Shown: positions 5,261-44,800 of the stretch, piece by piece
Layout: every line of letters starts with the position of its first letter
How positions within the stretch are numbered: the stretch's first letter is position 1
NCBI GenBank assembly: GCA_002703245.1
Contig: NZTV01000111.1
Span: 1 to 64,000 of the forward strand
Direction: 5' to 3'
Source: Microbacterium sp.
GTDB lineage: Bacteria; Actinomycetota; Actinomycetes; Actinomycetales; Microbacteriaceae
DNA length: 64,000 nucleotides
Made by a program: the position numbers and the translations under genes
Notes under the pieces: model-generated
What the model saw: the letters and a program-made list of their open reading frames with translations, nothing else
What the model was told of the DNA's origin: nothing
The model's database searches: none

Positions 5261-5292
5261 GTAACACCGCGGAAACGCGCCGCGCGTAACGT
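5261..5292 (+). promoter_or_regulatory. GlnR-like box and leaderless promoter of allB
   Basis: GTAAC-ACCGCG-GAAAC (5261-5276) matches the GlnR consensus exactly. A -10-like TAACGT (5287-5292) starts 11 nt downstream, and the allB GTG follows after 7 nt. The box also lies about 75 bp upstream of the divergent uraD start, so it could serve both directions. Confidence 0.65.
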
Positions 5293-13248: not shown

Positions 13249-13264
13249 GTAACGACCCCGAAAC
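13249..13264 (+). promoter_or_regulatory. GlnR-like box upstream of the ABC-deaminase operon
   Basis: GTAAC-GACCCC-GAAAC is an exact GTnAC-N6-GAAAC match. It lies 120 bp before the substrate-binding-protein gene, in a 238-bp gap after the deaminase. A TAGCGT hexamer at 13294-13299 could be the matching -10. A small stem, CCCCGGCGAGCTCGGGG, lies just upstream (13215-13231). Confidence 0.6.
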
Positions 13265-13384
13265 ACCGCGGCCAGTGTTCGTGAAATCTACATCCCGTAG
13301 CGTCCATCGCACGTGGAACGGGATCCGTCCTGATTCACCACTCCGTTACCCGAGGCACCACCCGCATCAGAGGACAGCACACAC

Positions 13385-25748: not shown

Positions 25749-27314
25749 TCAGGCGGTGTGCAACAGGTCGGCGGCACGTTCGGCGATCGCGACGGTCGGT
25801 GCCTGGGTGTTCGCGGTGGGGATGACCGGCATGACGGAGGCATCCGCCACCCACAGTCCCTCGAGGCCGCGAACCGCGAGCGACGGGTCGACGACGGCCA
25901 TCTCGTCCGTGCCGATGCGGGCGGTGCCGGCGCAGTGGAAGAACGAACCGATGTTCTCACGCACGAACCGCACCCGGTCCTCCCGGGAGGTCATCGACAC
26001 CGGCGGGGTGATCGGGCCTTCGGCGAGGTCGGCATAGGCCGAGGTGGCGACGAGGTCTTGAACCGCATCCAACGCTTCGACCATCGCGGCCAGGTCGGTC
26101 GGGTCGGCGAGGTAGTTCGGTTGGAACTCGGCGGGCACTGTCGGATCCGCCGAGCGCGAGCGCACCCAGCCGACACTGCGTGACCCGTACAGGCCGGGAA
26201 CGAGGGCGAAGACGCGGTTCCCGGTCAGGTCGTAGCGGTCGTGCAGGGTGTCGTCGCCGCGGGATCCGTGGGCGATGACGGTGTGCAGGTCGGGGCCGGT
26301 CTCGGCGTACGAGCTGCGCCAGTTGACCATCGCGCCGCCGCCGTTGCCGAGCACGGCGCCGAGGTCGTGCCGGGCGCGGAAGTTCACCCCGAGGATCAGA
26401 GGGTGGTCCTGGAAGTTCTCGCCGACGCCGGGCAGGTCGTGGCGAGGGGGGATGCCCGCTTCGCGCAGACGCACCGGGTCGCCGATGCCCGAGCGCTGCA
26501 GCAGGCGAGGGGTGTCGAGTGCGCCCGCGGAAAGGATGACGCGGGAGGCGCGGGTGGTGACCAGTGCGTTGTCGACCTCGTGACGGATGCCGGTGGCGGT
26601 GGTGCCCTCGAGCACGACGTCGTGGACCGGACTGTCCACCAACACGTGCAGGTTCGGCCGGGCGAGGGTGGGCTCGAGGTAGGCACGCGCGGTGCTCCAG
26701 CGTTCGAAGGATCCGTCGGCGCCTTCGATCGCGTTGTAGTCGGCGTAGACGGCGCCCTCGTTGGATGCCGCGTTGGCGTCGTCGATCACGGGGATGCCGC
26801 GCTCGCCGGCGGCATCGATCAGGGCGTGCGCGATCGGGTGGACCCGCGTGAGCGGGCCGACGCGGACCGGTCCGTCCAGGCCGCGGTACGCCGGGTCGCC
26901 GCCGGGGCGCGTCTCGGAGCGGCGGAAGAAGGGGAGGAGGTCGTCGTACCCCCAACCGGTGGCGCCGGATGCGGCCCAGGCGTCGTAGTCGGCGCGGGCG
27001 CCGCGGTACCAGAGCATCGCGTTGGTCGACGATGAACCGCCCAGCACGCGGCCCCGCGGCATGGCGATCGCGCGGCCGAGCACGTGCTCGGTGGGGGCGG
27101 AGGCGTAGCCGTGGTCGTAGGGTCCGCCGATCATGGCGTCCCAGTGGGCGGCCTCGAGGATCTCGCGCACCCCGCTGTGTGAGGGACCCGACTCCACGAG
27201 CAGCACCGTCGCATCCGGATCCTCCGACAGGCGGGCCGCGAGCACGCATCCTGCCGCGCCGCCTCCTACGACCAGATGGTCGTAGGAGGCGGCGGGCGTG
27301 GTGACGAACGGCAT
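25749..27314 (-). CDS. GMC-family FAD oxidoreductase
   Basis: This 521-aa flavoenzyme has the N-terminal dinucleotide motif DHLVVGGGAAGCVLAARLSE with the E of LVESGP, the GMC signature PRGRVLGGSSSTNAMLWYRG, a second signature near SAGALDTPRLL, and the C-terminal catalytic FFHCAGTARIG and ANTQAPTVAIAERAADLL regions. Members oxidise primary alcohols to aldehydes (choline, glucose, polyethylene glycol, pyridoxine). Beside an aldehyde dehydrogenase and an oxo-acid decarboxylase it could generate an aldehyde from an alcohol substituent, for instance a hydroxyalkyl group. The substrate is not deducible. It lies 40 nt upstream of the deaminase homologue. Confidence 0.85.
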   Translation of the reverse strand: MPFVTTPAASYDHLVVGGGAAGCVLAARLSEDPDATVLLVESGPSHSGVREILEAAHWDAMIGGPYDHGYASAPTEHVLGRAIAMPRGRVLGGSSSTNAMLWYRGARADYDAWAASGATGWGYDDLLPFFRRSETRPGGDPAYRGLDGPVRVGPLTRVHPIAHALIDAAGERGIPVIDDANAASNEGAVYADYNAIEGADGSFERWSTARAYLEPTLARPNLHVLVDSPVHDVVLEGTTATGIRHEVDNALVTTRASRVILSAGALDTPRLLQRSGIGDPVRLREAGIPPRHDLPGVGENFQDHPLILGVNFRARHDLGAVLGNGGGAMVNWRSSYAETGPDLHTVIAHGSRGDDTLHDRYDLTGNRVFALVPGLYGSRSVGWVRSRSADPTVPAEFQPNYLADPTDLAAMVEALDAVQDLVATSAYADLAEGPITPPVSMTSREDRVRFVRENIGSFFHCAGTARIGTDEMAVVDPSLAVRGLEGLWVADASVMPVIPTANTQAPTVAIAERAADLLHTA

Positions 27315-27345
27315 CAGGTGACCTCTCCGCAGCGAATCCCCCGCA

Positions 27346-27396
27346 TGTCCCACTCTCTGTCCTTGCGACGCGGGCTTGGCGACAGCTTTCGGGACA
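27346..27396. repeat. TGTCCC/GGGACA repeat (copy 2)
   Basis: TGTCCCACTCT (27346-27356) begins the element and TTTCGGGACA (27387-27396) closes it, with the outer 6 bp complementary. It lies between the TPP decarboxylase and GMC genes, in tandem with copy 3. Confidence 0.6.
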
Positions 27397-27429
27397 CGTT
27401 CAGAGCGGCGCGACCGACCCGGCGGGGCA

Positions 27430-27480
27430 TGTCCCACTCTGTGCGGCTACGGCGGGACGCTCGCAGCCGAAAAGGGGACA
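27430..27480. repeat. TGTCCC/GGGACA repeat (copy 3)
   Basis: TGTCCCACTCT (27430-27440) and AAAGGGGACA (27471-27480) delimit a 51-bp element identical in length to copy 2. Together they fill most of the 208-bp gap inside the minus-strand operon and may adjust expression of the downstream GMC and deaminase genes. Confidence 0.6.
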
Positions 27481-27522: not shown

Positions 27523-28137
27523 TCAGTTGTGCTCGCTCGGGCCCATGATCGTGATGCCCTCGGTCTCTTCCACATGGCGGACGAAGATGTACTTGTCCTC
27601 GCGCCCGTCGGAGTGCTTGCGTTTGATACCGGGTTCGAGGATGCCGTCGGTCTTCGCGACCACGATGTAGGGCTCGTCGGCGGCCAGGCCCGCGGCGCAG
27701 TGCTCGTCGAACTCCTCGAGCGTGTGCGCGGTGAAGGCCTTCTCGACCCCGGCTCCGCGGGCGATCGCGGCGAGGTCGACACGTCCGCCGTTGGTGTGGG
27801 TACGGGGCCCGCCGATCGACTGGTACTGCTCGTTGTCCCACACGACGATGAACAGGTTCTCGGGCTGCTCGTTGCCGAGGGTTGCGAGGATGCCGAGGTT
27901 GAACAGCAGTCCACCGTCGGTGTCGAGCGACACGATCTGGCGGTGGGGGAGTCCCACCGCGAGCCCGAAGGCCTCACCGGAGACGCATCCGAGCTGCTGC
28001 TGGAACAGGCTCGCCTCGCGCATGTGGGGTGCGGCGTTGTACCACTCGTCGACGGCGCCGCCGAGCGAGAGGATGACCAGCTCGTTCTCCAGACGGGCGC
28101 CGAGCAGCTTCATGGCTTCGAAACGGGAGTAGCTCAT
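27523..28137 (-). CDS. TPP-dependent 2-oxo acid decarboxylase, beta (TPP-binding) subunit
   Basis: This 204-aa protein resembles the C-terminal TPP-binding domain of sulfopyruvate/phosphonopyruvate decarboxylases (ComE-like). It has GCVSGEAFGLAVGLPH, the TPP-Mg motif SLDTDGGLLFNLGILAT, and WDNEQYQSIGG. Together with the alpha subunit encoded just upstream (4-bp overlap), it would form a decarboxylase that turns a 2-oxo acid into an aldehyde. Coenzyme M synthesis is unlikely in an actinobacterium, so the substrate is probably another 2-oxo acid in this catabolic operon. The C-terminal 40 residues (HSDGREDKYIFVRHVEETEG) are charged and not diagnostic. Confidence 0.82.
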   Translation of the reverse strand: MSYSRFEAMKLLGARLENELVILSLGGAVDEWYNAAPHMREASLFQQQLGCVSGEAFGLAVGLPHRQIVSLDTDGGLLFNLGILATLGNEQPENLFIVVWDNEQYQSIGGPRTHTNGGRVDLAAIARGAGVEKAFTAHTLEEFDEHCAAGLAADEPYIVVAKTDGILEPGIKRKHSDGREDKYIFVRHVEETEGITIMGPSEHN

Positions 28138-28634
28138 CGGACCAGACCTCCTCCGAGCACGACGGCGGCGTGGTGGTACGAGGCGTAGGCGTGCTCGTAC
28201 GCGTTGACCACCGCCTGCTCGATCTCATCGACCTCGCGCACGATCGTGTAGGGGGTGCGCAGGGTCTGCAGCAACGGTTCCATGGTGATCCCGTGGGGGA
28301 TCGCCCACCAGTTGTTCTCCCCGAGTTCGCCGCGGTAGCTCATGATCATGACGACCGGGATGCCGGCGCCCAGTCCCAGGCGGGCCAGGTGCTCGGTCGC
28401 GGCACGCAGGCCGGAGTTCTCCATGACCAGCACGGCGCGCTTACCGGACAGGAACACGCCGCCGGCGATCGCGGCACCTTCGCCCTCGTTGGTGACGGGG
28501 ATGGTGCGGATGTCGGCGTCGGCGTCCAGAGCCGGGTACAGCTCTTTCAGCAGCGAGTCGGGAAGGTAGGTGGCGACGCTGACGCCGGCGCGCTTGAGGC
28601 CCCGGATCACCGCCTCGACGGCTTCGGCTTTCAT
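28134..28634 (-). CDS. TPP-dependent 2-oxo acid decarboxylase, alpha (PYR) subunit
   Basis: This 166-aa protein resembles the N-terminal pyrimidine-binding domain of sulfopyruvate decarboxylase (ComD-like): VSVATYLPDSLLKELYPALD, then TNEGEGAAIAGGVFLSGKRA with the catalytic Glu that activates TPP, and MENSGLRAATEHLARLG. It makes an enzyme only with the beta subunit that overlaps its stop by 4 bp. It lies 136 nt downstream of the LLM monooxygenase gene; a 12-bp stem-loop sits in that gap. Confidence 0.83.
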   Translation of the reverse strand: MKAEAVEAVIRGLKRAGVSVATYLPDSLLKELYPALDADADIRTIPVTNEGEGAAIAGGVFLSGKRAVLVMENSGLRAATEHLARLGLGAGIPVVMIMSYRGELGENNWWAIPHGITMEPLLQTLRTPYTIVREVDEIEQAVVNAYEHAYASYHHAAVVLGGGLVR

Positions 28635-28770: not shown

Positions 28771-30153
28771 TTATGCGGGGGCGGGGGCGGTGGTCGCAGT
28801 CAGGCGGTGCGCGCGGTGCGAGGGTGAGAGCCGCGGGCTGCCGCTGAAACGTTCGCGCAGCGTGTCGGCGGGGGCGCTGGCACGGCCGCGCTCGACGAGG
28901 ATCGGCAGGACCAGGTCGATGAACGCGCGGTAGGAGTCGGGGCCGCCGAAGGTGGGTTCGAGCATGAGGCCGTCGATGCCGGATCCGTCGATGATGGCTT
29001 CGATCTCGTCGGCGACCTCCACCGGGTCGCCGGTGATCTGGAAGCCGCGGATCGCCTTGGTGCGGAACTGGTCCAGCACACCCCGCACCCGCACATCCGG
29101 GTCGTTCTTCGCGTAGCGGTCGACCAGGGTCTGCCCGTAGTCGGTGCGCAGGTCGACAAGCCGGGTGTCGGGGTCGACCCCGGTCAGGTCGATGCCGGTG
29201 ATGCCGGCGAACATGACGGCGGCGTCGTCGAGGCCGAGGAGCGCCTCGTACTCGGCCCGTAGCGCCTGGGCCTGTTCCCGGGTCTCGGCGACGGTGACGG
29301 TCATGCCGCTGACGACCTTCACCTCTGCGCCGTCGCGCCCGTGGGTCTCGGCTTTCGCGCGGATGTCGGCGACGTGCGCCGCAGCCGAGGCGATCGACTG
29401 GCCCTGGATGAACACGGCCTCGGCGTTTCGGGCCGCGTACGCGCGCCCGCGGTCGCTGGTGCCGGCCTGGAACAGCACCGGCGTGCGCTGCGGGGTCGGC
29501 GGCACGGCGAACACGCCGTGTGCGCGCTGGTACTCACCGTCGACCTCGACGCGGTGGAGCTTGTCGGGGTCGGCGTACAGTCCCCGTGCCCGGTCGCGGA
29601 GTTCCGCATCGTCGTCCCAGCTGTGCTCCCAGAACCGCAGGCACGTGTCGAGGAAGTCGTCGGCGGCGTCGTAGCGCTGGTCGTGGGTGAGCTTCCGCGT
29701 CACGCCGAACAGGTCGTCGGTGGTGGCCTGCGAACTGCCGGTGACGATGTTCCAGCCGATGCGCCCGCCGGTGAACCGGTCGAGCGTCGCGAAGCGTCGC
29801 GCCGTCGCGTAGGGCATTTCGACCGTGGTCGGCGAGGTGACCACGAACCCGATGTTCTCGGTCGCCCGCGCCAGCGCCGGGATGGCGAGCATGGGGTCCA
29901 GGGCCGGGAACTGGATGCCGTGGGCGGCGACCTCGTGCGGCATCCGCCCCTCGAGGGTGGCGTAGCCGTACGTGTCGGCGAAGAACAGGAAGTCGAACCC
30001 GGCTCGGTCGAGCATGGCGGCCAGGTCCACCCAGTAGTCGAGTCGGTCCCAGTCGTCACCGCGGCCGCGCGGGTCGGTCCAGGTCGGCATCCCGTTGCTG
30101 GGGTTCATCATCTCGAACGCGCCCAGCAGGATCGGCTTCTTCGTCTCACTCAT
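28771..30153 (-). CDS. LLM-class flavin-dependent monooxygenase (NtaA/SnaA/DszA type)
   Basis: This 460-aa protein starts KKPILLGAFEMMNPSNGMPT and has the NtaA-type blocks DFLFFADTYGYATLEG, ARRFATLDRFTGGRIGWNIVTGSSQ, YQRAHGVFAVPPTPQRTPVLFQAGTSDRG and the C-terminal FGGPDSYRAFIDLVLPIL. These FMNH2-dependent enzymes cleave C-N or C-S bonds or hydroxylate heterocycles (nitrilotriacetate, dibenzothiophene sulfone, uracil by RutA). A flavin reductase is not seen nearby; the nitroreductase at 34872-35720 might substitute. The start lies 2 nt from the upstream aldehyde dehydrogenase stop. The substrate is unknown. Confidence 0.88.
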   Translation of the reverse strand: MSETKKPILLGAFEMMNPSNGMPTWTDPRGRGDDWDRLDYWVDLAAMLDRAGFDFLFFADTYGYATLEGRMPHEVAAHGIQFPALDPMLAIPALARATENIGFVVTSPTTVEMPYATARRFATLDRFTGGRIGWNIVTGSSQATTDDLFGVTRKLTHDQRYDAADDFLDTCLRFWEHSWDDDAELRDRARGLYADPDKLHRVEVDGEYQRAHGVFAVPPTPQRTPVLFQAGTSDRGRAYAARNAEAVFIQGQSIASAAAHVADIRAKAETHGRDGAEVKVVSGMTVTVAETREQAQALRAEYEALLGLDDAAVMFAGITGIDLTGVDPDTRLVDLRTDYGQTLVDRYAKNDPDVRVRGVLDQFRTKAIRGFQITGDPVEVADEIEAIIDGSGIDGLMLEPTFGGPDSYRAFIDLVLPILVERGRASAPADTLRERFSGSPRLSPSHRAHRLTATTAPAPA

Positions 30154-30155
30154 CG

Positions 30156-31655
30156 TCAGATCACCATCGCCACGGTCTTGGTCTCCAGGTAGTTCTCGAG
30201 CCCCTGCGGGCCGTTCTCGGTACCCCATCCGGACTCCTTGTGGCCGCCCTTGGGCAGCTCGGGTCCGAGGAAGGAGTGGCAGTTGACCCACACGGTGCCG
30301 GCCTCGAGCTGTGCGGCGATGCGGTGGCCGTTGCTGAGACCCTCGGTCCATACGCTCGCGGCGAGGCCGTAGCGGGAGTCGTTGGCCCAGGCGACGACCT
30401 CGTCGATCTCGTCGAACGGGGTGACGACGGCGACGGGGCCGAAGATCTCTTCGCGCATGAGCGGCATGTCGGCGCGCACGTCGGTGAGCACGGTCGGGGT
30501 GTAGAAGGTGCCCTCGCGGGTGCCGCCGGTGACCACGCGGGCGCCGTCCGCAGCGCCGGCGTCGACGAGGGACGCGACCCGTTCGGCCTGCGGGGTGCTC
30601 ACGAGCGGGCCGAGGTCGGCGTTCGGGTCGAGGCCGTGGCCGAGGCGGAGCTTCTCGCCGGTGGCGGCCATCCCCTCGACGACGCGGTCGTAGACGTCGC
30701 GGTGGGCGTACACGCGGGCGCTGGCGACGCACACCTGCCCGCCGTTGTCGAAGATGCCGCGCGAGACGCCCTCGATGGCGGCGTCGATGTCGGCGTCGGG
30801 GAGGATGAGCGAGGGCGACTTCCCGCCGAGCTCGAGGGTGAGGCGGGTCAGGTCGGTGGATGCGGTTTGCACGAGTCGTTTGCCGACGGCGGTCGAGCCG
30901 GTGAAGGCGACCTTCGCGACATCCGGGTGCTCGACGAGGGCCTGTCCCGCTTCGGCGCCGTAGCCGCTGATGATGTTGACGACACCGTCGGGAACCCCGG
31001 CGCGCTGGAGGAGCCGACCGAGGAATGCGGCGGTGAGCGGGGTGTTCTCGGCGGGCTTGAGGACGATGGTGCAGCCGGCGGCCAGGGCCGGGGCGAGCTT
31101 CATCGCGGTCATGATCAGCGGTGAATTCCACGGCACGATCGCCGCGACCACGCCGACCGGTTCGCGTCGCGTGTAGGCGAAGAGCTCTTTGCCGACCGGG
31201 GTACGCGAGATCGAGGTGGGGATGGTCTGCCCGAAGATCTTGGTGGGCCACCCGGCGTAGTAACGGAACTGGTTGATTGCGGCGGGCACCTCGCCGAAGC
31301 GCGAGGTACGCAGGTTCTTGCCCTGGTCGAGGGTTTCCAGCTCGGCGAGGTCGTCGAGGTGTTCCTGCATGAGGTCGGCGATGCGCCACAGGAGGGCGCC
31401 GCGGTCGGCGGGGCTCATCCCGCGCCAGTCGGGGCGGTGCAGGGCTTCGCGTGCGGCGGCGACCGCCTGTGCGACGTCGGCGGCGTCACCGCGGGCGACG
31501 GATGCGAGTGCCTGGCCGGTGGCCGGGTCGAACGTGTCGAAGGTCTCGCCGGATGCCGCGGCCTGCCACGATCCCCCGATCAGCAGGCGGCCGGGATCGT
31601 CGGCGAGGAAGCGTGCGACACCGTCGCGGAGCGTCGGTGCGGAGGGGGGAGTCAT
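30156..31655 (-). CDS. NAD(P)-dependent aldehyde dehydrogenase
   Basis: This 499-aa enzyme has all ALDH hallmarks: VVAAIVPWNSPLIMTAMKLA, cofactor loop FTGSTAVGKRL, general-base LELGGKSPSL, the catalytic Cys in FDNGGQVCVASAR, and EEIFGPVAVVTPFD. The length is typical. It is the first gene of the minus-strand operon and would oxidise the aldehyde made by the TPP decarboxylase or GMC enzyme to an acid. The ATG at 31655 lies 38 bp downstream of a -10-like TATAGC; the promoter carries an inverted repeat and a GlnR-like box. Confidence 0.92.
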   Translation of the reverse strand: MTPPSAPTLRDGVARFLADDPGRLLIGGSWQAAASGETFDTFDPATGQALASVARGDAADVAQAVAAAREALHRPDWRGMSPADRGALLWRIADLMQEHLDDLAELETLDQGKNLRTSRFGEVPAAINQFRYYAGWPTKIFGQTIPTSISRTPVGKELFAYTRREPVGVVAAIVPWNSPLIMTAMKLAPALAAGCTIVLKPAENTPLTAAFLGRLLQRAGVPDGVVNIISGYGAEAGQALVEHPDVAKVAFTGSTAVGKRLVQTASTDLTRLTLELGGKSPSLILPDADIDAAIEGVSRGIFDNGGQVCVASARVYAHRDVYDRVVEGMAATGEKLRLGHGLDPNADLGPLVSTPQAERVASLVDAGAADGARVVTGGTREGTFYTPTVLTDVRADMPLMREEIFGPVAVVTPFDEIDEVVAWANDSRYGLAASVWTEGLSNGHRIAAQLEAGTVWVNCHSFLGPELPKGGHKESGWGTENGPQGLENYLETKTVAMVI

Positions 31656-31693
31656 GCGGACACCTCACGTCGGGGGCGGGGGATGCCCCTGAT

Positions 31694-31745
31694 GCTATAC
31701 AGCAATCATTGATTGCTTGTAGCTATCACGTTTCGCGTGTGTTTC
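31694..31745 (-). promoter_or_regulatory. composite operator/promoter of the aldehyde dehydrogenase operon
   Basis: On the minus strand a GlnR-like box GAAAC-ACACGC-GAAAC (31745-31730) is followed by 12 nt, then the perfect inverted repeat AGCAATCA-A-TGATTGCT (31717-31701) and, 1 nt later, a -10-like TATAGC (31699-31694). The repeat lies where the promoter spacer should be, so a repressor bound there would block RNA polymerase while GlnR could activate from upstream. The same layout precedes the amidohydrolase gene (37141-37194). Confidence 0.7.
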
Positions 31746-31811
31746 AGGATTCGCAGCCTCGTCACCCGCGCGCCCGACGCGCGGACGGTGGGCGTGCGCG
31801 AGGGGCTCCGA

Positions 31812-32351
31812 TCAGGCCGCCGCGATCGAGTGGATGTCGGACGAGAACGTCTGTCCGTTGAGCTCGAGATAGACGTGTCGTTCTGTCACCGACAGGCTCA
31901 TCGTCGTGCGGCGTTCGATCTGCGCGGATGCCGCTTCGAGGAACCCGCGGTCGAAGCTGTGCACCAGGATCTCGGCTCCGCGGTGGATCCGCTTTCCCTG
32001 CCAACTCGCGACGAGCTTGGCGGGATCCCGGTGGGTGTACACGGCGACGTGGCTGGCCTTCATGCTGCCTTCGTGCAGCCGCGCGGCATCCGGCGCGCCC
32101 ACTTCGATCCATCCCGTCAGCGAGCCGGTCGCATCGCGGATGACGATCGCCGGCTCATCGGTGGCCGAGATGCCCTCGGTGAACGCGATGCCCTCGGCGA
32201 ACTCCAACCCGTAGGCGAGTACCCGGGTGAGCATGTAGACGTCGGTTTCGGAGGGGTGTCGCGCCACGCGGAGGGAGAGGTCGTCGTAGACCCCGCGGTC
32301 GACATCGGCGAGCGTCACGGTGAAGGTGTGGATCGTCGCGCCGGCAGCCAT
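31812..32351 (-). CDS. yaeQ: YaeQ family protein
   Basis: This 179-aa protein has the YaeQ landmarks ARHPSETDVYMLTRVLAYGL, SATDEPAIVIRDATGSLTGW and WIEVGAPDAARLHEGSMKA. YaeQ proteins have a PD-(D/E)XK nuclease-like fold; their role is unresolved. The gene stands alone, with the aldehyde dehydrogenase promoter region 157 bp downstream and the third deaminase homologue divergent 78 bp upstream. Confidence 0.9.
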   Translation of the reverse strand: MAAGATIHTFTVTLADVDRGVYDDLSLRVARHPSETDVYMLTRVLAYGLEFAEGIAFTEGISATDEPAIVIRDATGSLTGWIEVGAPDAARLHEGSMKASHVAVYTHRDPAKLVASWQGKRIHRGAEILVHSFDRGFLEAASAQIERRTTMSLSVTERHVYLELNGQTFSSDIHSIAAA

Positions 32352-32429
32352 CCCGTCAGCCTATGCCGCAACACTCCGGACACATGTCGCGGGTAGACCT
32401 GATCCCGCACCCCGAACCAGAGGACCCCT

Positions 32430-33476
32430 GTGATCTCGTACCCCGACTATCTGCGCCTGTTGCCGAAGGCGGAACTGCACTGCCACCTCATCGCGCTGAT
32501 GCGCCCCGACATGCTGCTCTCCTTCGCCGACCGCAACGACGTCGCGTTGCCGTCCCGCGACATCGACGCGCTCATCGACTCCGACAATCTGCAGGACTTC
32601 CTGGCGTTGTTCGTCACGGCCAATGACGTGCTTCGGACGCAAGACGACTTCGCCGAGGTGGCCTACGAGGGGGTGAAGGATGCGGTGCGTGCCGGCAACC
32701 TCCGCTACCGCGAGTACTACGTCAACTCCCAGAACTCGAGCGCCTACCTGTCCTATCCCGACTTCATGGACGGCATCATCGCGGGTCTCCGCCGGGCCGA
32801 AGACGAGTTCGGCGTCGGGTTCCGCATCGTCAACGCGATCAACCGGTCGCTGTCGCCCGAGGCCGCCGTCGAGATGGTGCGCGAGATGATCCGTCACCCG
32901 CGCGCGGAGGTCGTCGGCATCGGTCAAGACCACCTCACCGCCGACGGCGGGGAGGACCCGGGGCTGTGGATCGACGCCTACCGGCTCGCCGCCGAGCACG
33001 GGCTGAAGCGCACCGCGCACGTGGCCGAGACGATGCCGGCCGATCCGGATGCGGTGCGCATCGCGCTCGACGATCTCGGCGTGGATCGCATCGACCACGG
33101 CTACCGTGCGGTCGATGACCCGGACGTGCTCGCGCAGCTCGCCGCATCCGGAACCCATGTGGCCTGCACCCCGATCTCCACCCAGGTGCTCTCCGGGTGG
33201 GCGCCCACGCCGGATCATCGCATCGCCACGCTCATCCGCGAGGGCGTTCCGGTGAGCTTCTCCACCGACGACGCCGTGTTCTTCCGTACCGACCTCGGAC
33301 GTGAGTACGTCGACGGGCTGACGGGAATGGGGTTCGGCCCCGAGGTCGCCAAGCAGGTCTCGCTCGCGGGAATCGACGGGGCATGGTGCGATGGCGCGAC
33401 GAAGGCCCGGCTGCGCGCGGACTTCCGCGCGCAGCACCTCGTGCTCGACGCGCTGCTCGACCCGACGATGCGATAG
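32430..33476 (+). CDS. adenosine deaminase-family protein (HVAE variant)
   Basis: This 348-aa protein has PKAELHCHLIALM (HxH), HVAETM (H197, E200) in place of HAGE, VDRIDHGYRAVDDP and STDDAVFFRTDLG. The proton-donor Glu is kept, while Ala-Gly becomes Val-Ala. It is a clear paralogue of the gene at 24674-25708; both open with a YLRLLPKAELHCH stretch. The GTG at 32430 is preceded by AGAGGA (32419-32424). It is divergent from yaeQ and shows no GlnR-like box. A purine or aminopurine substrate is likely by family; the exact one is open. Confidence 0.8.
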   Translation: MISYPDYLRLLPKAELHCHLIALMRPDMLLSFADRNDVALPSRDIDALIDSDNLQDFLALFVTANDVLRTQDDFAEVAYEGVKDAVRAGNLRYREYYVNSQNSSAYLSYPDFMDGIIAGLRRAEDEFGVGFRIVNAINRSLSPEAAVEMVREMIRHPRAEVVGIGQDHLTADGGEDPGLWIDAYRLAAEHGLKRTAHVAETMPADPDAVRIALDDLGVDRIDHGYRAVDDPDVLAQLAASGTHVACTPISTQVLSGWAPTPDHRIATLIREGVPVSFSTDDAVFFRTDLGREYVDGLTGMGFGPEVAKQVSLAGIDGAWCDGATKARLRADFRAQHLVLDALLDPTMR

Positions 33477-33566
33477 CGCTACGACTGCCCACCGGGCGCG
33501 CGCGGTCTTCTCATCACCGCTGCCGTCGAAGCGGTAGGTTCGAGGGCGTCGAGTGAGAGGGGCGCG

Positions 33567-34175
33567 ATGACCAGGGGGCGGCCACTGTACGTCGAGACGT
33601 TCATCCGTGCCGATCTCGAGCGCGTCTGGGAGCTCACGCAGGACTCTGAGCAGCATCCGCGCTGGGACCTGAGGTTCAGTGCGATCCGGCCGCTCGGAAC
33701 GGATGGCGGTGGACGCACGCGATTCCGATACGAACGCACACTGCCGTTCCACGTCATCCGCGGAGAAGGTGTGTCTCTCGGGGAAAAGACACGACCCGAC
33801 GGTACGCGCACGTCGGCGCTCGGATTCTCGACGGAGGACCGCTGGTCGCCGCTCCGCAGCGGACGCGGATTCTGGCGATATGTCCCGACCGACTCCGGAG
33901 TGCGCTTCATCACCGGCTACGACTACCGGCCCGGCTGGGGTCGTGTGGCGGATGTCGTGATGCGGCCGGTGATCCTCTGGATGACGGCGTGGAGCTTTGA
34001 CCGGCTGAGGATCTGGGCGGAGTCCGAAGAGACGCGGCCGCAATGGAGGCTCCGATCGGTGCTCGCGTTCTGGCGAGTCGAACGGCCGCGCGCATCGCGG
34101 TGCCGCACGACGCCACCCCCGAGTGGAGCCATGGCGGAGGCCCCGGAGACCCTCAAGCATGTGGTCATCGGGTGA
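33567..34175 (+). CDS. SRPBCC-family protein
   Basis: This 202-aa protein begins LYVETFIRADLERVWELTQD, the typical first strand and helix of START/SRPBCC ligand-binding folds. It contains RWDLRFSAIRPLGTDGGGRT and, later, hydrophobic VVMRPVILWMTAWSFDRLRI. The C-terminal 35 residues are Pro/Arg-rich and disordered. It overlaps the DUF4166 gene by 4 bp, so the two probably work together on a hydrophobic ligand or membrane lipid. No catalytic residues are evident. Confidence 0.75.
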   Translation: MTRGRPLYVETFIRADLERVWELTQDSEQHPRWDLRFSAIRPLGTDGGGRTRFRYERTLPFHVIRGEGVSLGEKTRPDGTRTSALGFSTEDRWSPLRSGRGFWRYVPTDSGVRFITGYDYRPGWGRVADVVMRPVILWMTAWSFDRLRIWAESEETRPQWRLRSVLAFWRVERPRASRCRTTPPPSGAMAEAPETLKHVVIG

Positions 34176-34852
34176 GCGAGACCGCCATTTTCCGCACCGC
34201 GCTCGGCGACGAGTTCGATCGTCTCCATCCGATGATGCAGCGCCGGTTCGGTGTCTCGCTCGCCGGAGGATATGCGTGTGTTGGCCGCGGCACGATGACT
34301 CACATCCGGCGCGGCCCATGGTGGACCGTGCCCTTCCTGCTCATCGGACGGCTACGACACATCCTCGTCGCCGACACCGGAACGAACGTGCCCTTCGTCG
34401 TCGAGAACTATCCGTACCGCGACCCGCTCGGCCGCGAGACGGTGACGTTCGTGCGCGAGTATCGCGCGCGCACGAAACCCGCTCGATTCGACGCGACCAT
34501 GGTGCTCGATCCCGACCGCCGCACGATCGTCGACTACCTCGGAACGCACCAGCACCTCGCCGTCGACCTGCACCTGGAGGTGGATGAGAACGGTGGTCTC
34601 GTGCTGAGGTCGGATGAGCAGCGATTCTATGAGGGGCCGGTCGCGTTCCGATTCCCCATGCTCTTCTCCGGTCGCGCTGAGCTGCACGAACGCTACGACG
34701 AGGCTGTCGGCGCCTTCCACATCACCCTGGAGGTGCGGAACCGCCTGTTCGGGTTCCTCTTCGGATACGAGGGCTGGTTCACGTGCGATTTCCCGCCCGC
34801 CACCGACGCTCCGGATCGCCTGAAGCCCGTGCGCCACGAGTCGCGGTTGTGA
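34172..34852 (+). CDS. DUF4166 domain protein
   Basis: This 226-aa protein begins with GTG overlapping the SRPBCC stop (GTGA). It has LHPMMQRRFGVSLAGGYACV, the PFVVENYPYRDPLGRETVTF block and a C-terminal LFGFLFGYEGWFTCDF. These fit DUF4166, a domain often fused or paired with dehydrogenases or SRPBCC proteins. Function is not known. The pair SRPBCC-DUF4166 forms a two-gene unit unrelated to the purine genes. Confidence 0.75.
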   Translation: MSETAIFRTALGDEFDRLHPMMQRRFGVSLAGGYACVGRGTMTHIRRGPWWTVPFLLIGRLRHILVADTGTNVPFVVENYPYRDPLGRETVTFVREYRARTKPARFDATMVLDPDRRTIVDYLGTHQHLAVDLHLEVDENGGLVLRSDEQRFYEGPVAFRFPMLFSGRAELHERYDEAVGAFHITLEVRNRLFGFLFGYEGWFTCDFPPATDAPDRLKPVRHESRL

Positions 34853-34871
34853 GCAGTTTGGAGGGCTCCCT

Positions 34872-35720
34872 CTAGTTCGAAGGGAGGCCGCGCTGCTCCA
34901 GTGCCTCGCGCATCACGTGGCGACCGCGCAGGCTCGCTTCGTCTCGTACGCGAGCCAGCACGGTCGGCGTCCACGGCCGCGCCGTGCCCTGCGAGGCGTA
35001 GTACGCCGAGAGGGCGTCGTCGTACGCGTCGATCGCCGAGTCGGAAGGCTCGCGGTACGTCTCGCGGTGGCGCACGACATCCTGCGGGAGGCGCGGCTTG
35101 ATGCCGGCGGTGTCGTCGGGATCGGGGTGTCCGATCGCCATTCCCGCGACCGGGAACGCCCCGGCGGGGAGTTCGAGGAGGTCGCTGAGGGCGAGGGGAT
35201 TGTTCCGCACCGACCCGACGTAGGTGATGCCCAGGCCGAGCGACTCGGCCGCGATCGCGGCGTTCTGCGCGGCGATGCCCGCATCCACGAACGACACCAG
35301 TGTGCTCTCGAGGTAGTCGATGCCGGCCGTGCCCGCGTCGCGCTGCTCGGCGATGAGGCGGTTGCGTGCCCAGTCGGCGACGAACACGAGGAACACCGGA
35401 GCCCGGCGAATGAACTCCTGGTCCCCGGAGAGTTCGGCGGCTGCAGCCTTGCGCTCGGGATCGCGGATCTCGATCACCGACCACGATTGCATGTTCGAGC
35501 TTGTCGATGCCGATTGGGCCGCGGCGATGATCGCTGTGATGGCGTCGTCGGAGACGTCTTCGGGGGTGAAGCGACGCACCGACCGGTGCCGCAACTGCAG
35601 GGCGATGACATCGTTGACCGACTCGAGCGTGTCGGGTGCCGCATCGCCATATCGCGCGCCGAGTCTCTCGTCGATGGCTTCGGCGCGCGGGGTCGTCGAG
35701 GTCGTCGCTGATTCGGTCAT
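34872..35720 (-). CDS. nitroreductase-family NAD(P)H oxidoreductase
   Basis: This 282-aa FMN protein of the NfsA/FRP branch has RHRSVRRFTPEDVSDDAITA (FMN-phosphate Arg/Ser), AQSASTSSNMQSWSVIEIRD, AAESLGLGITYVGSVRNNP and, near the C-terminus, KPRLPQDVVRHRETY. Such enzymes reduce nitro groups, quinones or flavins. It might deliver reduced FMN to the LLM monooxygenase at 28771-30153, since no dedicated flavin reductase is seen, but that is speculation from proximity. It lies 42 bp downstream of the amidohydrolase on the same strand... reading leftward it is the second gene after it. Confidence 0.85.
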   Translation of the reverse strand: MTESATTSTTPRAEAIDERLGARYGDAAPDTLESVNDVIALQLRHRSVRRFTPEDVSDDAITAIIAAAQSASTSSNMQSWSVIEIRDPERKAAAAELSGDQEFIRRAPVFLVFVADWARNRLIAEQRDAGTAGIDYLESTLVSFVDAGIAAQNAAIAAESLGLGITYVGSVRNNPLALSDLLELPAGAFPVAGMAIGHPDPDDTAGIKPRLPQDVVRHRETYREPSDSAIDAYDDALSAYYASQGTARPWTPTVLARVRDEASLRGRHVMREALEQRGLPSN

Positions 35721-35762
35721 ATCAGGGACGACGATATCGCGCCGCCGGATATTCCCGGGAGG

Positions 35763-37133
35763 TCAGTGGAACAGGCCCTCCGGGTCGCCGTGGGCGTCGA
35801 GCCACTCCTGCCGGCGCTCGAACAGCCCCGGCACGAGCGTGCGTACGCGGGCGATGAGCTCATCGACGTCGGCCGTGACGAGCCGCCCGCCCTGCACGAC
35901 GATCTCGCCGGCGACCATGGTCATGTCGACGTCCGACCCGCGCACCGCGTGCACGAGGTTGTGATGGATGTTGGCGTAGCCGCCGGCGGGGAGGAACGGC
36001 GTCATACGCGGAGTGTCGGCCCGCACCGCGACCAGGTCGGCCTGGAACCCGGGAGCGACGCGACCGAGACGGTCGCCCTGACCGATGGCGGCAGCCCCGC
36101 CGCGCGTGGCCATGTGCATCACCTGCCATGAGTCCATGGCGGCGGCATCCATCGACCGGAGCTTGCCGAGCAGGGAGGCGACTTTCATCTCCTCGAACAT
36201 GTCGAGGTTGTTGTTCTCCTTCTCGCCGTCGGTGCCGAGGCCGACGTTCACGCCCGCGGCGAGCATCTCGGCCACCGGTGCCATGCCGCTGGCGAGCTTC
36301 ATGTTCGAGATCGGATTATGCGAGACGCCGACACCGCGCTCGGCGATCAGGCCGATTTCGGACTGGTCGAGCCACACCGCGTGGGCCAGCATCGCGCGCG
36401 GGGTGTCGAAGAAGCCGTGCTTGTCGAGCGCGAAGATCGGGCGCATCCCGTACCGGCTGTCGAAGTCGGCGAGTTCGATCTCGGATTCGCTGCAGTGCGT
36501 GTAGATGCCGGTGTCGAAGTGGCGGGCCATGTCGATCGCGCGCTTCTGCCCGGCCTCGTCGGCGTAGAACCAGTGCTCCAGTCCCACCCACGGCATGATG
36601 CGTCCGCCGGCGGCGCCGGCCCACTCCCGCAGCATTCGCTCGTTGTCGTCCAGGGAGTCGAAGTAGTCGAAGTCCGGATGCTCACCGACGTAGTTGACGG
36701 TCACGACGCGGTTGCCGAGCTCTTGCGCGGCGCGGGCGGCGCCGTCCATGTATCGCCACATGTCGACCACGGTCGTCGTGCCCGACAGCAGACCCTCCGC
36801 GTAGCAGAGCCACGCGGCCGCCTCGGCTTCGTCCGGCCGTAGCACGCGGTGCATCGGGTCGATGTGCAGTCGCAGCCACTCCCACACCGGCAGGTGTTCG
36901 GCCGTGCCGCGCAGCATGCCGGAGTGGTGGTGCGCGTTGACCAGGCCGGGCATGAGGACCCGGTCGGAGAGATCGACCCTGTCCGCACCCGGATGCTGCG
37001 CCGCGAGCTCGGCGGCGGGCCCGACGGCGGTGATCGTGTCACCGGTCACCAGCACGGCGGTGTCGGTGACGACGTCGAGGGAGGAGTTCATGGTCACGAC
37101 GGCGTCGGGGACCAGCAATCGCGGAGTACTCAT
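35763..37133 (-). CDS. AtzA/TrzN/MtaD-type amidohydrolase
   Basis: This 456-aa metal hydrolase has NAHHHSGMLRGTAEHLPVWEW (the HxH ligands), GIYTHCSESEIELADFDSRY, the next metal His in LAHAVWLDQSEIG, SHNPISNMKLASG and GLGTDGEKENNNLDMFEEM with the metal Asp. These are the marks of the chlorohydrolase/SAH-deaminase branch (TrzN, AtzA, MtaD, guanine deaminase relatives). It would remove an amino, chloro or alkylamino group from a heterocycle. The promoter is leaderless (TACTAT, 7 nt, ATG) and shares its composite operator with the aldehyde dehydrogenase operon, so the two probably serve one pathway. Confidence 0.83.
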   Translation of the reverse strand: MSTPRLLVPDAVVTMNSSLDVVTDTAVLVTGDTITAVGPAAELAAQHPGADRVDLSDRVLMPGLVNAHHHSGMLRGTAEHLPVWEWLRLHIDPMHRVLRPDEAEAAAWLCYAEGLLSGTTTVVDMWRYMDGAARAAQELGNRVVTVNYVGEHPDFDYFDSLDDNERMLREWAGAAGGRIMPWVGLEHWFYADEAGQKRAIDMARHFDTGIYTHCSESEIELADFDSRYGMRPIFALDKHGFFDTPRAMLAHAVWLDQSEIGLIAERGVGVSHNPISNMKLASGMAPVAEMLAAGVNVGLGTDGEKENNNLDMFEEMKVASLLGKLRSMDAAAMDSWQVMHMATRGGAAAIGQGDRLGRVAPGFQADLVAVRADTPRMTPFLPAGGYANIHHNLVHAVRGSDVDMTMVAGEIVVQGGRLVTADVDELIARVRTLVPGLFERRQEWLDAHGDPEGLFH

Positions 37134-37140
37134 CGGCTCG

Positions 37141-37194
37141 ATAGTAGGAAGCAATCGTGTATTGCTTGCGGCAATCACGTTTCGGTGGTGTTTC
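37141..37194 (-). promoter_or_regulatory. composite operator/promoter of the amidohydrolase gene
   Basis: On the minus strand: GlnR-like box GAAAC-ACCACC-GAAAC (37194-37179), 12 nt, the inverted repeat AGCAAT-ACACG-ATTGCT (37166-37150), 3 nt, then -10-like TACTAT (37146-37141), and the ATG 7 nt later. The distance from box to repeat (12 nt) is the same as at 31694-31745, and the intervening bases share CGTGATTGC/CGTGATAGC. Confidence 0.7.
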
Positions 37195-37425
37195 CCGGTC
37201 GACGGCTGTGCACGGGCAGACGGTCGTCGACTCAGAACGGCGGCGCGACGGGCTGGGGGGACCTGCGGGGCGGGTGGGACGGATCCGGGGAGAACATCAC
37301 GCGCGGCGGGGGCTTCTCGACGTGACGGAGTCCCGAGGGCGCGATGAAGTGAAGGGTGCCGCCCGGGCGTTGCGTGACCGTCCATGGTGTCGCGTGCTTC
37401 AACGTGTGGTGACGTTTACAGAAGG

Positions 37426-39168
37426 GAGGCTGTCGCATGAATGGTGGCGTTCTCGGAGTGGCTTGGAGCATTTTTTGCCTGATCAGGGGATGATTAGGTG
37501 TGGCTGTGAATGTGCGTTCGGGTGACCGTGATCAGGTGTTTCTGCTTCCCCCGTCGGTGCGGGACTGGCTCCCGGAAGGCCATTTGGCGTGGTTCGTTCT
37601 CGATGTTGTTGGTGAGCTGGATCTGACGGGTTTCTATCGCGCGTATCGCGCTGATGGGCGTGGTGGCGCGGTGTATGACCCGGCGGCGATGCTCGCGGTA
37701 CTGCTCTACGCGTACTGCACCGGCGAGCGGTCGTCGCGGCGAATCGAGCGGCGTCTTGTCGAAGACGTCGCTTACCGGGTCCTCGCGGCGAATCAGGCTC
37801 CTGACCATGCGACGTTGGCGCGATTCCGGCGCCGCCACCAGGACGCGATCGCCGCGTTGTTCGGGCAGGTCCTCGGGCTCTGCGTGAAGGCGGGTCTTGT
37901 GGACGCGGGGATCGTGTCCATCGATGGGACGAAGGTCGCCGCGGACGCGTCGTTCTTCGCCAGCCGGCGGCAGGAAGAGTTGGCTGCGGAGATCCTTGCC
38001 GAAGCGGATGCGGTCGACACCGCCGAGGACGAACTCCACGGCGAGCAGCGCGGTGACGAACTCCCCACGAAGTGGGCGGGAGGTCAGGGCCGGCGGGAGC
38101 GAATCCGGGCCGCGCTGGATGAGCTCGAGCGGGACAAGGCCCGCGATTTCGAGTCACGCATCGCCGAACGTGAACGCAAGGAGGAAGAGCTGGGCAGGAA
38201 GCTGACCGGCCCGAAGCCGAAGGCCGACTCCGCCAAACGCTCCCAGCCGCGGCGGGCGAACACGACCGACCCGGACTCGAAGATCTTCGCCACCGGCGCT
38301 CGCGGGGCGATGCAGGGATACAACGCGCAAGCCGCGGCGACGACCGCGCAGATCGTCGTGGCCGCGGAAGTGACCGCGACCGCCAACGACCAGCCCCATT
38401 TCGTTCCGATGGCCACGGCTGTCCTCGAGAACCTCGCCGACGCCGCCCACTCCAACCCGGTCGGTGTCATCGTCGCGGACGCAGGCTATTGGACCGCCGC
38501 GAACGGGACGACCGACATCGGCGCGGACGTGCTGATCGCGACACGGAAGACCGCGTGGCGGAAAACCCCGAAGCCCGACGACGACAAACTCGCCATCCTC
38601 GCCCGCGTCAACCGCGGCGAGCTTTCCTACCGCAAAGCCGGCGAGCTCCTCGGCGTCTCATACACGTGGGTTCGAGACATGACGAAACGGTACTTCGGCA
38701 CCGAGGGCGAACGCATCACACGCACCTGCGAACCCGACCCGGCCGAGTGGATTCCCGTGATCGAACAAGCCGACCGAGGAGAAATCTCCAAACGCGCCGC
38801 CGCCGACACTCTCATGGTCTCCAGCACCCGCGTCAACGCCATGCTCGCCCACGTCAGAGGAGAACGCGTCGATCCCGTCATCGCCCGGCAACGCATGGAC
38901 GACAAGCTCGCCGAGCCCGGCAACCGTGAGATCTACACAAAACGGCAACACAGCATCGAACCCGTCTTCGGCAACATCAAGAACAACCTCGGCTACCGAC
39001 GATTCGCTCGCCGAGGAATCGCCGCCGTCCAAAGCGAATGGCGCCTCATCTGCAGCGCCCACAACCTCCTCAAACTCCGAACCGCCATCCTCGCCTAAGA
39101 GCCGGGAGCCACCCGGCCACCCCCACGCCGTCGCACACACCAGCCGCCACCATTCATGCGACAGCCTC
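37426..39168 (+). mobile_element. IS1182-family insertion sequence, complete
   Basis: A 1743-bp element is bounded by 24-bp perfect terminal inverted repeats (37426-37449 and 39145-39168, beginning GAGGCTGTCGCATGAATGG). It is flanked by the direct repeat AAGG (37422-37425 and 39169-39172). It contains one intact transposase gene. Because the ends, target duplication and transposase are intact and the host gene can be restored exactly, the insertion looks recent and the element may be active. Confidence 0.93.
37500..39098 (+). CDS. IS1182-family transposase
   Basis: This 532-aa DDE transposase has an N-terminal DUF772-type domain (LLPPSVRDWLPEGHLAWFVL ... YDPAAMLAVLLYAYCTGERS), then catalytic Asp in VSIDGTKVAADASF, the GYNAQAAAT motif, the second Asp in VIVADAGYWT (about residue 325) and the Glu in HSIEPVFGNIKNNLGYRRF (about residue 486). 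Between second Asp and Glu lie two helix-turn-helix-like repeats (about residues 370-394 and 424-448), which lengthen this region. The GTG start gives the normal N-terminus. The gene is intact. Confidence 0.93.
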   Translation: MAVNVRSGDRDQVFLLPPSVRDWLPEGHLAWFVLDVVGELDLTGFYRAYRADGRGGAVYDPAAMLAVLLYAYCTGERSSRRIERRLVEDVAYRVLAANQAPDHATLARFRRRHQDAIAALFGQVLGLCVKAGLVDAGIVSIDGTKVAADASFFASRRQEELAAEILAEADAVDTAEDELHGEQRGDELPTKWAGGQGRRERIRAALDELERDKARDFESRIAERERKEEELGRKLTGPKPKADSAKRSQPRRANTTDPDSKIFATGARGAMQGYNAQAAATTAQIVVAAEVTATANDQPHFVPMATAVLENLADAAHSNPVGVIVADAGYWTAANGTTDIGADVLIATRKTAWRKTPKPDDDKLAILARVNRGELSYRKAGELLGVSYTWVRDMTKRYFGTEGERITRTCEPDPAEWIPVIEQADRGEISKRAAADTLMVSSTRVNAMLAHVRGERVDPVIARQRMDDKLAEPGNREIYTKRQHSIEPVFGNIKNNLGYRRFARRGIAAVQSEWRLICSAHNLLKLRTAILA

Positions 39169-40186
39169 AAGGCTCCGACGTTGTCGATGTCGGTTCGGCC
39201 ACCGTGGGCATGGTCTTTCCGGTGGTCCCAATCGCATTCCCGCGCGGACCGCCGGCATCCGGGGAATCGGCAGTGCACGTCGCGCGCGAGGAGATAGCGC
39301 TTCTGCGCAGCAGTGGTGTGTCGGCGGTCGACGGCCAGAACCGCCCCGGTGATGGGGTCGAGGAACACCCGATCGAAGCCGGGCGCGTGTCCGGTGAGAA
39401 CCTTCGCCGTCTCCGGGTCGACGGCGCAGACTCCGTCGAGCTGCGCCCCACCGGAGGTGGTGCCCGCGAGGGTGGACGCGGGGACGGTGAGCTGCACCTG
39501 CGCCCGGATCGCCCCCAGTCCGCCTTCGACCGTGGTGCCGGTGGGGTCGATCGTCGGCGCGGCGGTGAGAAGCATGTCCATCAGCACATCGGTGCGGATC
39601 TGATCGATGCTGCGCTCGTCGATCCCGATGTCTCCACGGGAGCTGTCGGGCGCGCCGGGGCTGCCGGGTGCGTCGTCGCCGGTGGCGGCCGCGGCCGGGG
39701 CGGAACCGGCGGTGACGGTGCCCTCCGCCGGTGGGTCAACGGCGCGGCGAGCGGCGCGATCCGCATCTCTGATCGCGCGCGCTTGGCGCGTCAGACGATC
39801 ATGGATGCCGTGGATCTCGGTCGCGGGCCCGATCGCCCCGAGCATCGCCATCCCGTCGCGGAGGTCTTCGACCCACACCCGCCGTGTGAGCGCCGCCGTG
39901 TCGTGGCGCTCCTGGATCGTCTTCGGGTCGTACTTCTCGGCGACCTGCTCGGCATACGTCCGGGTGCGCGGTGCGGTGGTGGTCTCGGCGTAGGCGAGCA
40001 CGTCGCGCTCGTATGCGGAGCGGGCCTGGGGGTCCTCGAGCCCCGCGCCCTTGTCGACGATCGCGGCCAGGACCAGGCCAAGCGATGAGGTGGAGATGAC
40101 TTCAAATGCGCACGACCCGGCCGATGCGGCGAAGACCGCTCGGTTCGCGCTGCGCGCCAAGGAGATCGCCGCGGTGAAGGCTCGCT

Positions 40187-44215: not shown

Positions 44216-44800
44216 TCAGGAGCCGGCGGTGTAGATCAGCGCGACGCGGGCCGAGCCGTCGCCACGCGACTGCCAGCGGTTCCGGAGCGCGCCCGGGTGT
44301 GCGACCGCATCCCCCTCGCTCAGCTCCCACACGCCCAGGCCCTCGATCTCCAATGCGAGCGAGCCTTCGATGACGTAGTGCACGACCTCGCCGTCGGATT
44401 CGAACCAGTCGCCGACGCGCTCGCCGGGTTCGATGCGGTACTCCTGCAACGACGTCGCGCCGGCATGGATCACGCGCGTGTGGGCGGTGTCGGGCTCCTC
44501 GGAGATCGGCACCCACCGTGCCTCGGCTGCACGCGAGACGTGCACGACCTCGGGATCCGGGTCGGCCGGGAGCAACGCCGACGGCGACATCTCGAGCGCG
44601 TTCGCGATCCGGTACAGCGTGATGAGGGAAGGCATCGTCTGCCCGCTCTCGATCTGGCTGAGGAAGGGCTGGCTGATCTCGGCGGCCGTCGCCAGGGCCC
44701 GCATCGACAGTTTGCGCTCCGACCGGGCTTCGCGGATCGCGCGCCCGAGACGGTCGCCGATCAGCTGATCGATCGAGGCGGGCTGGTCGCTGGCGGGCAC
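44216..44800 (-). CDS. XRE-family regulator with C-terminal cupin (xdh operon)
   Basis: This 194-aa protein has a helix-turn-helix (about residues 18-70: LGRAIREARSERKLSMRALA ... ISQPFLSQIESGQTMPSLIT) and a cupin (about 120-190: LQEYRIEPGERVGDWFESDG ... VVHYVIEGSLALEIEG). It is the last gene of the xdh operon, 9 nt after the FeS-molybdopterin subunit, and likely controls purine oxidation. It shares architecture and operon position with the regulator at 18071-18703, suggesting paired regulators for uptake and oxidation. Confidence 0.88.
   Translation of the reverse strand: MPASDQPASIDQLIGDRLGRAIREARSERKLSMRALATAAEISQPFLSQIESGQTMPSLITLYRIANALEMSPSALLPADPDPEVVHVSRAAEARWVPISEEPDTAHTRVIHAGATSLQEYRIEPGERVGDWFESDGEVVHYVIEGSLALEIEGLGVWELSEGDAVAHPGALRNRWQSRGDGSARVALIYTAGS

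Follow-up and report, generated by a model that had tools for sequence, protein, structure and literature searches.

A predicted composite promoter joining a GlnR-like box to an XRE-cupin operator in Microbacterium

What kind of control would place the same composite operator in front of two transcription units that lie about five kilobases apart? The question is raised by a 64,000-nucleotide stretch of DNA from Microbacterium sp. (the window: positions 1 to 64,000 of contig NZTV01000111.1, assembly GCA_002703245.1), in which a 55-bp element occurs upstream of an aldehyde dehydrogenase (ALDH) operon, as P1, and upstream of an amidohydrolase gene, as P2. Each copy combines a box like those bound by the nitrogen regulator GlnR with inverted repeats and a predicted -10 hexamer. 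The element is probably a composite promoter, at which GlnR would activate under nitrogen limitation and an XRE-cupin protein encoded at 44216-44800 would repress until a metabolite is bound. Binding by GlnR and the XRE-cupin, the direction of their effects, the nature of the ligand and the transcription starts are inferred from sequence comparison.

Two copies of the element

The first-pass annotation had described GAAAC-N6-GAAAC, 12 nt and AGCAAT-N5-ATTGCT in series ahead of both genes, and this layout is found on the minus strand at 31701-31745 (P1) and 37150-37194 (P2). A search of the window for the element with up to two mismatches gives three matches, two of them exact, versus 0.25 expected in shuffles. 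Throughout the 3.03-Mb genome, AGCAAT-N5-ATTGCT with at most one mismatch occurs in two places only, P1 and P2, and the reversed control gives none. The pattern GAAAC-N6-GAAAC-GTGAT with up to three mismatches occurs in 27 places (reversed control, 8), with P1 and P2 exact and each of the remaining 25 carrying three mismatches. A profile derived from 23 sites in other genomes returns P1 (4.4e-14) and P2 (1.4e-10) from the window's genome and nothing else at E <= 10. The window shuffles, the genome pattern count and this independent profile rule out a chance origin, and the element is confined to P1 and P2 rather than scattered at random in the genome, an outcome that the earlier annotation had allowed for. 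P1 and P2 agree at 41 of 55 positions. Recent duplication of a promoter region is ruled out as well, given that their 60-bp flanks (17/60 and 21/60 identical) are unrelated.

In this genome the regulon would comprise two promoters, those of the ALDH operon and of the amidohydrolase, as had been proposed; the "unknown dedicated repressor" that went with the proposal now has a good candidate in the XRE-cupin. The assembly, in 120 contigs, is about 84% complete, so that a third site is possible in the missing part.

Anatomy of the element

Ungapped alignment of the 23 sites of other genomes (21 from Microbacterium, one from Dietzia and one from Rathayibacter) divides the element into a 16-bp box, mostly G(A/T)AAC-N6-G(A/T)(A/C)A(C/T), then 1 bp, TGATWGC-N5-GCWATCA, a further 1 bp, and (T/C)GATWGC-N4-TANNATC. 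Half-sites repeat every 10 bp, and the last of them is the -10 hexamer. The best reading of the alignment is that the operator consists of two tandem 19-bp dyads of the form TGATWGC-N5-GCWATCA, with centres 20 bp apart and the second overlapping the -10. On the same reading, AGCAAT-N5-ATTGCT, which the first-pass annotation took for the operator itself, would be the junction between the two dyads: the operator does stand between box and -10, and the true repeat is longer.

At P1, on the minus strand, the GlnR-like box GAAACACACGCGAAAC (31730..31745), whose fixed spacing is kept in the 23 sites, is followed by dyad 1, TGATAGC-N5-GCAATCA (31710..31728), and by dyad 2, TGATTGC-N5-AGCATCA (31690..31708), in which four of seven arm positions pair and which overlaps the predicted -10 hexamer TAGCAT (31692..31697). 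At P2, on the same strand, the alignment gives the box GAAACACCACCGAAAC (37179..37194), dyad 1 as TGATTGC-N5-GCAATAC (37159..37177) with an imperfect right arm, and dyad 2 as CGATTGC-N5-ACTATCG (37139..37157), overlapping the predicted -10 hexamer TACTAT (37141..37146). Both hexamers lie 4 nt after ATTGC, as at the 23 sites. A -10 had been noted before at a distance of 1-3 nt; the hexamer is present, and the floating distance is wrong. TATAGC, the earlier choice at P1, was dropped because only TAGCAT retains the spacing of the relatives. An ATG is found 6 or 7 nt past the element in 9 of 30 aligned rows, including P2, and these mRNAs are therefore probably leaderless.

At the 28 sites from other genomes, dyad 1 pairs at six or more of its seven arm positions in 17 cases, dyad 2 in 3 and the junction in 12. 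The second dyad is therefore the weakest part of the tandem-dyad reading, and the -10 hexamer takes up part of its right arm; both points count against that reading. An alternative, unlikely in our judgement, is that the binding unit is the inner palindrome GCAATCA-A-TGATTGC rather than the two dyads that flank it. In P1 the inner palindrome pairs at all seven positions, as it does at 8 of the 28 sites, among them those of genomes G233, G280 and G131, where the first half-site is degenerate, but it pairs at only one to five of seven positions in 16 of the 28.

Because the half-site was derived from Microbacterium sites, distant loci can test the binding unit with a large degree of independence. 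The test used 29 of 80 named loci (L143-L170 and L201), with XRE-cupins of 39-51% identity, from Agromyces, Myceligenerans, Nocardia, Mycolicibacterium, Pseudonocardia, Actinomadura, Kineococcus and other genera; loci of the Microbacterium/Dietzia type (L128-L142) and those below 39% identity (L171-L200, L202-L207) were left out. Between -300 and +50 of the match start, GATWGC-N5-GCWATC with no more than 2 of 12 positions mismatched is found at 21 of the 29 loci, versus 0.3 expected from random windows of the same loci. Other spacings and orientations of the dyad reach at most 8/29, and the junction form, GCWATC-N3-GATWGC, is found at 0/29. The Rathayibacter locus L149, the one of the 29 that was known beforehand, scores as a miss. 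Without the near-duplicates L155 and L159, 19 of 27 loci carry the dyad, whereas 100 resamplings gave 0.86 on average and never more than 3. These counts favor the dyad over the inner palindrome as the binding unit.

The candidate regulator

From its domains, co-occurrence and predicted fold, the XRE-cupin encoded on the minus strand at 44216..44800 is most likely the dedicated repressor of P1 and P2. Its N-terminal HTH_3 domain (PF01381) matches at 2.4e-13, with 50.3 bits versus a cut-off of 23, and Cupin_2 matches at 6e-6, with 26.3 bits, slightly below the Pfam cut-off of 27.2. The predicted structure (mean pLDDT 88.4, pTM 0.60) is a helix-turn-helix bundle with a C-terminal beta-barrel that matches cupins, and its top PDB matches are HppE, an enzyme, and the regulator 1y9q, both of the same architecture. 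HxH is the cupin metal motif; none was seen in the cupin part of this protein, which suggests a sensor and not an enzyme. The protein forms one clade, with a support of 100/100, with those of G236 (94% identity), G278, G261 and G326.

A match to the XRE-cupin at E <= 1e-30 is present in 32 of 366 genomes of the genus and is close (E <= 1e-49) in 30. A profile search of 34 chosen genomes found the operator in all 30 with a close XRE-cupin ortholog and in none of the four without one (G168, G323, G359 and G120, with weaker XRE-cupin matches in G168 and G120). The whole composite is present in 27 of the 30, at a best E of 1e-11 or below. Sites for the profile were supplied by 18 of the 30 genomes; the 12 that supplied none are G000, G278, G326, G139, G221, G035, G334, G204, G203, G233, G280 and G131.

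Pattern searches were also made. A loose pattern of 34 bases with three mismatches matched 62 of 198 genomes and was judged too loose; from its matches, G163, G054, G079, G156 and G131 were chosen by sequence and confirmed by gene context, and each of the five has its site close to an XRE-cupin orthologous to the window's (45-65% identity). A strict pattern occurs at 14 places in 13 of the 366 genomes (reversed control, 3), and 12 of the 13 fall among the 32 genomes with an XRE-cupin match. The strict-pattern sites of G219, which is one of these 12, and of G263 have no cluster gene beside them and were set aside as chance. With a matrix of six sites, two of them from the window, true sites score 29.9-82.4 and all else in those loci scores at most 15.7; this matrix finds no site in loci L083, L084, L086, L104 and L107-L110.

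The proposal that the element always precedes these two genes in related genomes did not hold. In relatives, the element follows the XRE-cupin gene or precedes a gene for ALDH, the amidohydrolase, a substrate-binding protein or a 2-oxoglutarate (2OG)-Fe(II) oxygenase. Genomes G168, G323 and G359 keep the gene order ALDH-LLM-ComD-ComE-GMC, with no close amidohydrolase, and both a close XRE-cupin and the element are absent. In G233, the amidohydrolase and ALDH genes are on contig C33 without the element, and an XRE-cupin of 49% identity on contig C5 adjoins an operator of its own. Because these four genomes keep pathway genes with no element at them, the element follows the regulator and not the two genes, and an element tied to the genes is ruled out. 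ComD is present in 31 of the 366 genomes, 28 of which have a close XRE-cupin ortholog; the remaining three are G168, G323 and G359.

Beyond the genus, the full composite recurs among the 80 named loci in Dietzia cinnamea, in an amidohydrolase-ALDH cluster with an XRE-cupin of 62% identity, and in Rathayibacter. A search of 398 genomes of the family matched four: the window's own, G221, G410, which is the Rathayibacter locus L149 already present in the training set, and G455, where both the site and the XRE-cupin have diverged and lie about 1.3 kb apart. No composite was found in L171-L200 and L202-L207, save weak partial matches in Gordonia. There, at L185 (8820) and L194 (8817), a GAAAC-like box and a repeat of the GCTAATAAA type lie upstream of XRE-cupins of 35-36% identity, perhaps as a variant of this frame that has diverged.

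Another repeat, with arms like GGCTA-GAACA-TAAGCTATCA, lies upstream of the window-type XRE-cupins of three relatives, at L084 (7472), L101 (8994) and L130 (7912), and is perhaps the XRE-cupin's own promoter. The window encodes a second XRE-cupin (18071-18703), which was rejected as the regulator of P1 and P2; its ortholog locus in G163 (L104) is without such an element.

Predicted mode of control

A GlnR gene was chosen by eye among 10 Trans_reg_C matches in the genome (PF21695, GlnR_1st, 1e-42; PDB 4o1h, 1.5e-26). The GlnR-like pattern GTNAC-N6-GAAAC occurs 17 times in the genome, versus once for the reversed control; three copies are in the window, and one lies 124 nt upstream of an open reading frame (ORF) that seems, by eye, to encode an ammonium transporter. 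The earlier description of the upstream box as GlnR-like fits with these results.

With the -10 taken as -12 to -7, dyad 1 would extend from -43 to -25 and dyad 2 from -23 to -5. From a box centred near -52, GlnR would activate when nitrogen is limiting. Dimers of the XRE-cupin on the two tandem dyads, whose centres are two helical turns apart and which together span about -43 to -5, would block the -35 to -10 region and turn the promoter off, until binding of a pathway metabolite by the cupin domain relieved repression. The outcome would be an AND gate, open when a shortage of nitrogen coincides with the presence of substrate. The predicted positions of the dyads fit occlusion.

The GlnR consensus is cited at 22 bp in the available portion of PMC10704036, and a GlnR footprint of that length would reach about 5 bp into dyad 1; GlnR and the XRE-cupin may therefore compete. 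This overlap, the invariant distance between box and operator, and the lack of an evident -35 at P1 and P2 would suit an XRE-cupin that binds as an activator, or as an anti-activator of GlnR, and not as an occluding repressor. Such a role is quite unlikely, given that the operator covers the -10 and that the characterized XRE-cupins of Pseudomonas aeruginosa are inhibitors, as far as the available text of PMC7901475 goes.

Points against the proposed control

Several points weigh against GlnR activation combined with XRE-cupin repression. The b-site of the P1 and P2 boxes is an exact GAAAC, and the a-site is GAAAC, not GTnAC. The a-site in relatives alternates between GAAAC and GTAAC, with GTAAC in 6 of the 23 aligned sites; published GlnR boxes include both forms (PMC10704036 and PMC3087709, in the portions available), and GAAAC-n6-GTATC is a variant in S. 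avermitilis (PMC10704036, same portion). Two other GlnR-like promoters, at 5261 and on contig C16, have TAnnnT at column 27, which is 22 bp nearer the box, a difference as long as the cited GlnR consensus; this weakens the case for activation from -52. The distance from box to predicted -10, column 49 in P1 and P2 and column 50 at 13249, is not that of the 5261 and C16 promoters. At the amtB-like locus L118 and at L120, no TAnnnT was found within reach of the box; in S. coelicolor amtB, a GlnR half-site is at -35 according to the available part of PMC5826061.

Among the relatives, G233 has a weaker composite (3.6e-6) with the GlnR box off its usual place, and G280 and G131 have the operator part without the GlnR box. 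The counts of genomes are not independent events, because the genomes are related. G262 retains the element before ALDH, though its only XRE-cupin match is broken (G262:C1:115360-115889; L101 7829-8387); the loss may be recent. In the window itself, the regulator gene is not adjacent to the element, lying about 12.5 kb from P1 and about 7 kb from P2; it adjoins the element in many relatives. Finally, beside the element in G236, the closest relative, lies a second XRE-cupin gene whose product is at 59% identity to the window's, and the window is without it.

The sufficiency of the window's XRE-cupin copy is the weakest link for the window. G236 has copies of both types (94% and 59%) and the window has the 94% type alone, so the operators might be orphaned here, with the true regulator, the element-side copy of G236, lost with the DNA replaced at 37.2-40.2 kb, and with the remaining XRE-cupin serving another target. 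This possibility is about as improbable as an activating XRE-cupin. G278 and G326 retain the operator with a single XRE-cupin match apiece, in both cases of the window's type; the window-type protein is therefore probably sufficient. In addition, the recognition region SQPFLSQIE is identical in the window's copy and in most relatives. As to the replaced DNA, the substrate-binding-protein gene and second XRE-cupin of G236 have given way at window positions 37195-40180 to DNA that holds a transposase-like ORF (37500-39098), apparently within an HNH-nuclease-like gene (by eye).

Least probable of all is that the operator belongs to another DNA-binding protein and the XRE-cupin is a co-inherited neighbor: co-occurrence alone is weak, because the XRE-cupin is in the same gene cluster in most relatives, and the operator of G262 has outlived an intact XRE-cupin, but G280 and G131 have XRE-cupin and operator where the ComD cluster is absent, G168, G323 and G359 have the cluster with neither, and the same dyad stands beside distant XRE-cupins in other families.

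Genes behind the promoters

The first gene past P1 on the minus strand encodes ALDH (30156..31655), as identified by a domain scan. It is followed by genes for an LLM monooxygenase of the NtaA/DmoA family (flavin mononucleotide; 28771-30156), ComD (28134-28634), ComE (27523-28137) and a GMC oxidoreductase (25749-27437, start uncertain); the gene order is the same in relatives, and all four are probably part of the ALDH operon. Past P2, also on the minus strand, lies the amidohydrolase gene (35763..37133), with its ATG 7 nt after the element and a probably leaderless mRNA. A nitroreductase-family gene found by scan (34872..35720, minus strand) is 3' of the amidohydrolase and possibly co-transcribed.

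The ComD/ComE-like proteins make up a two-subunit decarboxylase dependent on thiamine pyrophosphate (TPP), and xanthine-dehydrogenase-like subunits, read by eye, are also present. The pair (27523-28634; 166 and 204 amino acids) is near LumK/LumL in size and make-up, on which alone they were compared. LumK and LumL (20 and 23 kDa) are described in the available part of PMC12746152 as the TPP-dependent heterocycle decarboxylase of lumichrome degradation. As a guess, the pathway would serve the breakdown of a fused pyrimidine heterocycle.

At L035 (5031-6080), L103 (8336-9394), L037 (3157-4359), L149 (9643-10737) and L224 (7903-8958), the operator or a sequence diverged from it precedes a gene for a 2OG-Fe(II) oxygenase, identified by Pfam scan for L035 and by sequence likeness for the others. 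This gene is a predicted second target of this family of XRE-cupin regulators.

Relation to known systems

The XRE-cupin repressors of P. aeruginosa (ErfA, PsdR, PauR, PA0535 and others) are the nearest parallel in the available portion of PMC7901475. Those with determined regulons are inhibitors with palindromes mostly in core promoters beside their own genes; like the candidate, they combine a helix-turn-helix with a cupin domain, and they act locally on one or two targets within catabolic clusters. The operators differ, however, and that portion reports no tandem pair of dyads with 20-bp spacing joined to a GlnR box; moreover, the window's gene is not beside its presumed targets. PuuR (NCBIfam NF007408) shares the XRE-cupin architecture (6.7e-8), but at 32 bits versus a cut-off of 211 the protein is not its ortholog. 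The GTnAC/GAAAC direct repeat with N6 is shared with actinobacterial GlnR promoters, whereas P1 and P2 differ from those described in the available parts of PMC10704036, PMC3087709 and PMC5826061 in having a single far-upstream box and a local operator in the -35/-10 region. Control by a global activator together with a local repressor is already known, and P1 and P2 are a strongly conserved new example of it. A literature search, with subscription papers largely outside its coverage, found no pairing of GlnR with an XRE-cupin and no such operator in Microbacterium or Actinobacteria.

A related arrangement is seen in the window at 13249-13304 (+), as well as at L109 (12796, +) and L168 (4353, -), where GTAAC-N6-GAAAC is combined with a different conserved insert, CCAGTGTTCGTGAAATCTACATC, and with TAGCGT at column 50. 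The operon behind 13249-13304 has genes for a substrate-binding protein, an ABC transporter and an adenosine-deaminase-like protein, and the second XRE-cupin at its end. This nearly identical frame, with another insert and its own XRE-cupin, hints at operators swapped into one frame. On sequence, the composite resembles a GlnR promoter in which an XRE operator would have taken the place of the proximal box. A more doubtful extension, offered tentatively, is that the 55-bp frame is a general chassis, with a GlnR box at -52 and a slot in which a pathway-specific operator has replaced the proximal GlnR box, and that GlnR and the XRE-cupin contact one another or compete at the invariant distance.

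With these results, an actinobacterial subfamily of XRE-cupins gains a predicted operator, TGATWGC-N5-GCWATCA, together with likely targets. The element links genes of what we guess to be a heterocycle-degradation pathway, and the 55-bp promoter shows how nitrogen and substrate control may be fused.

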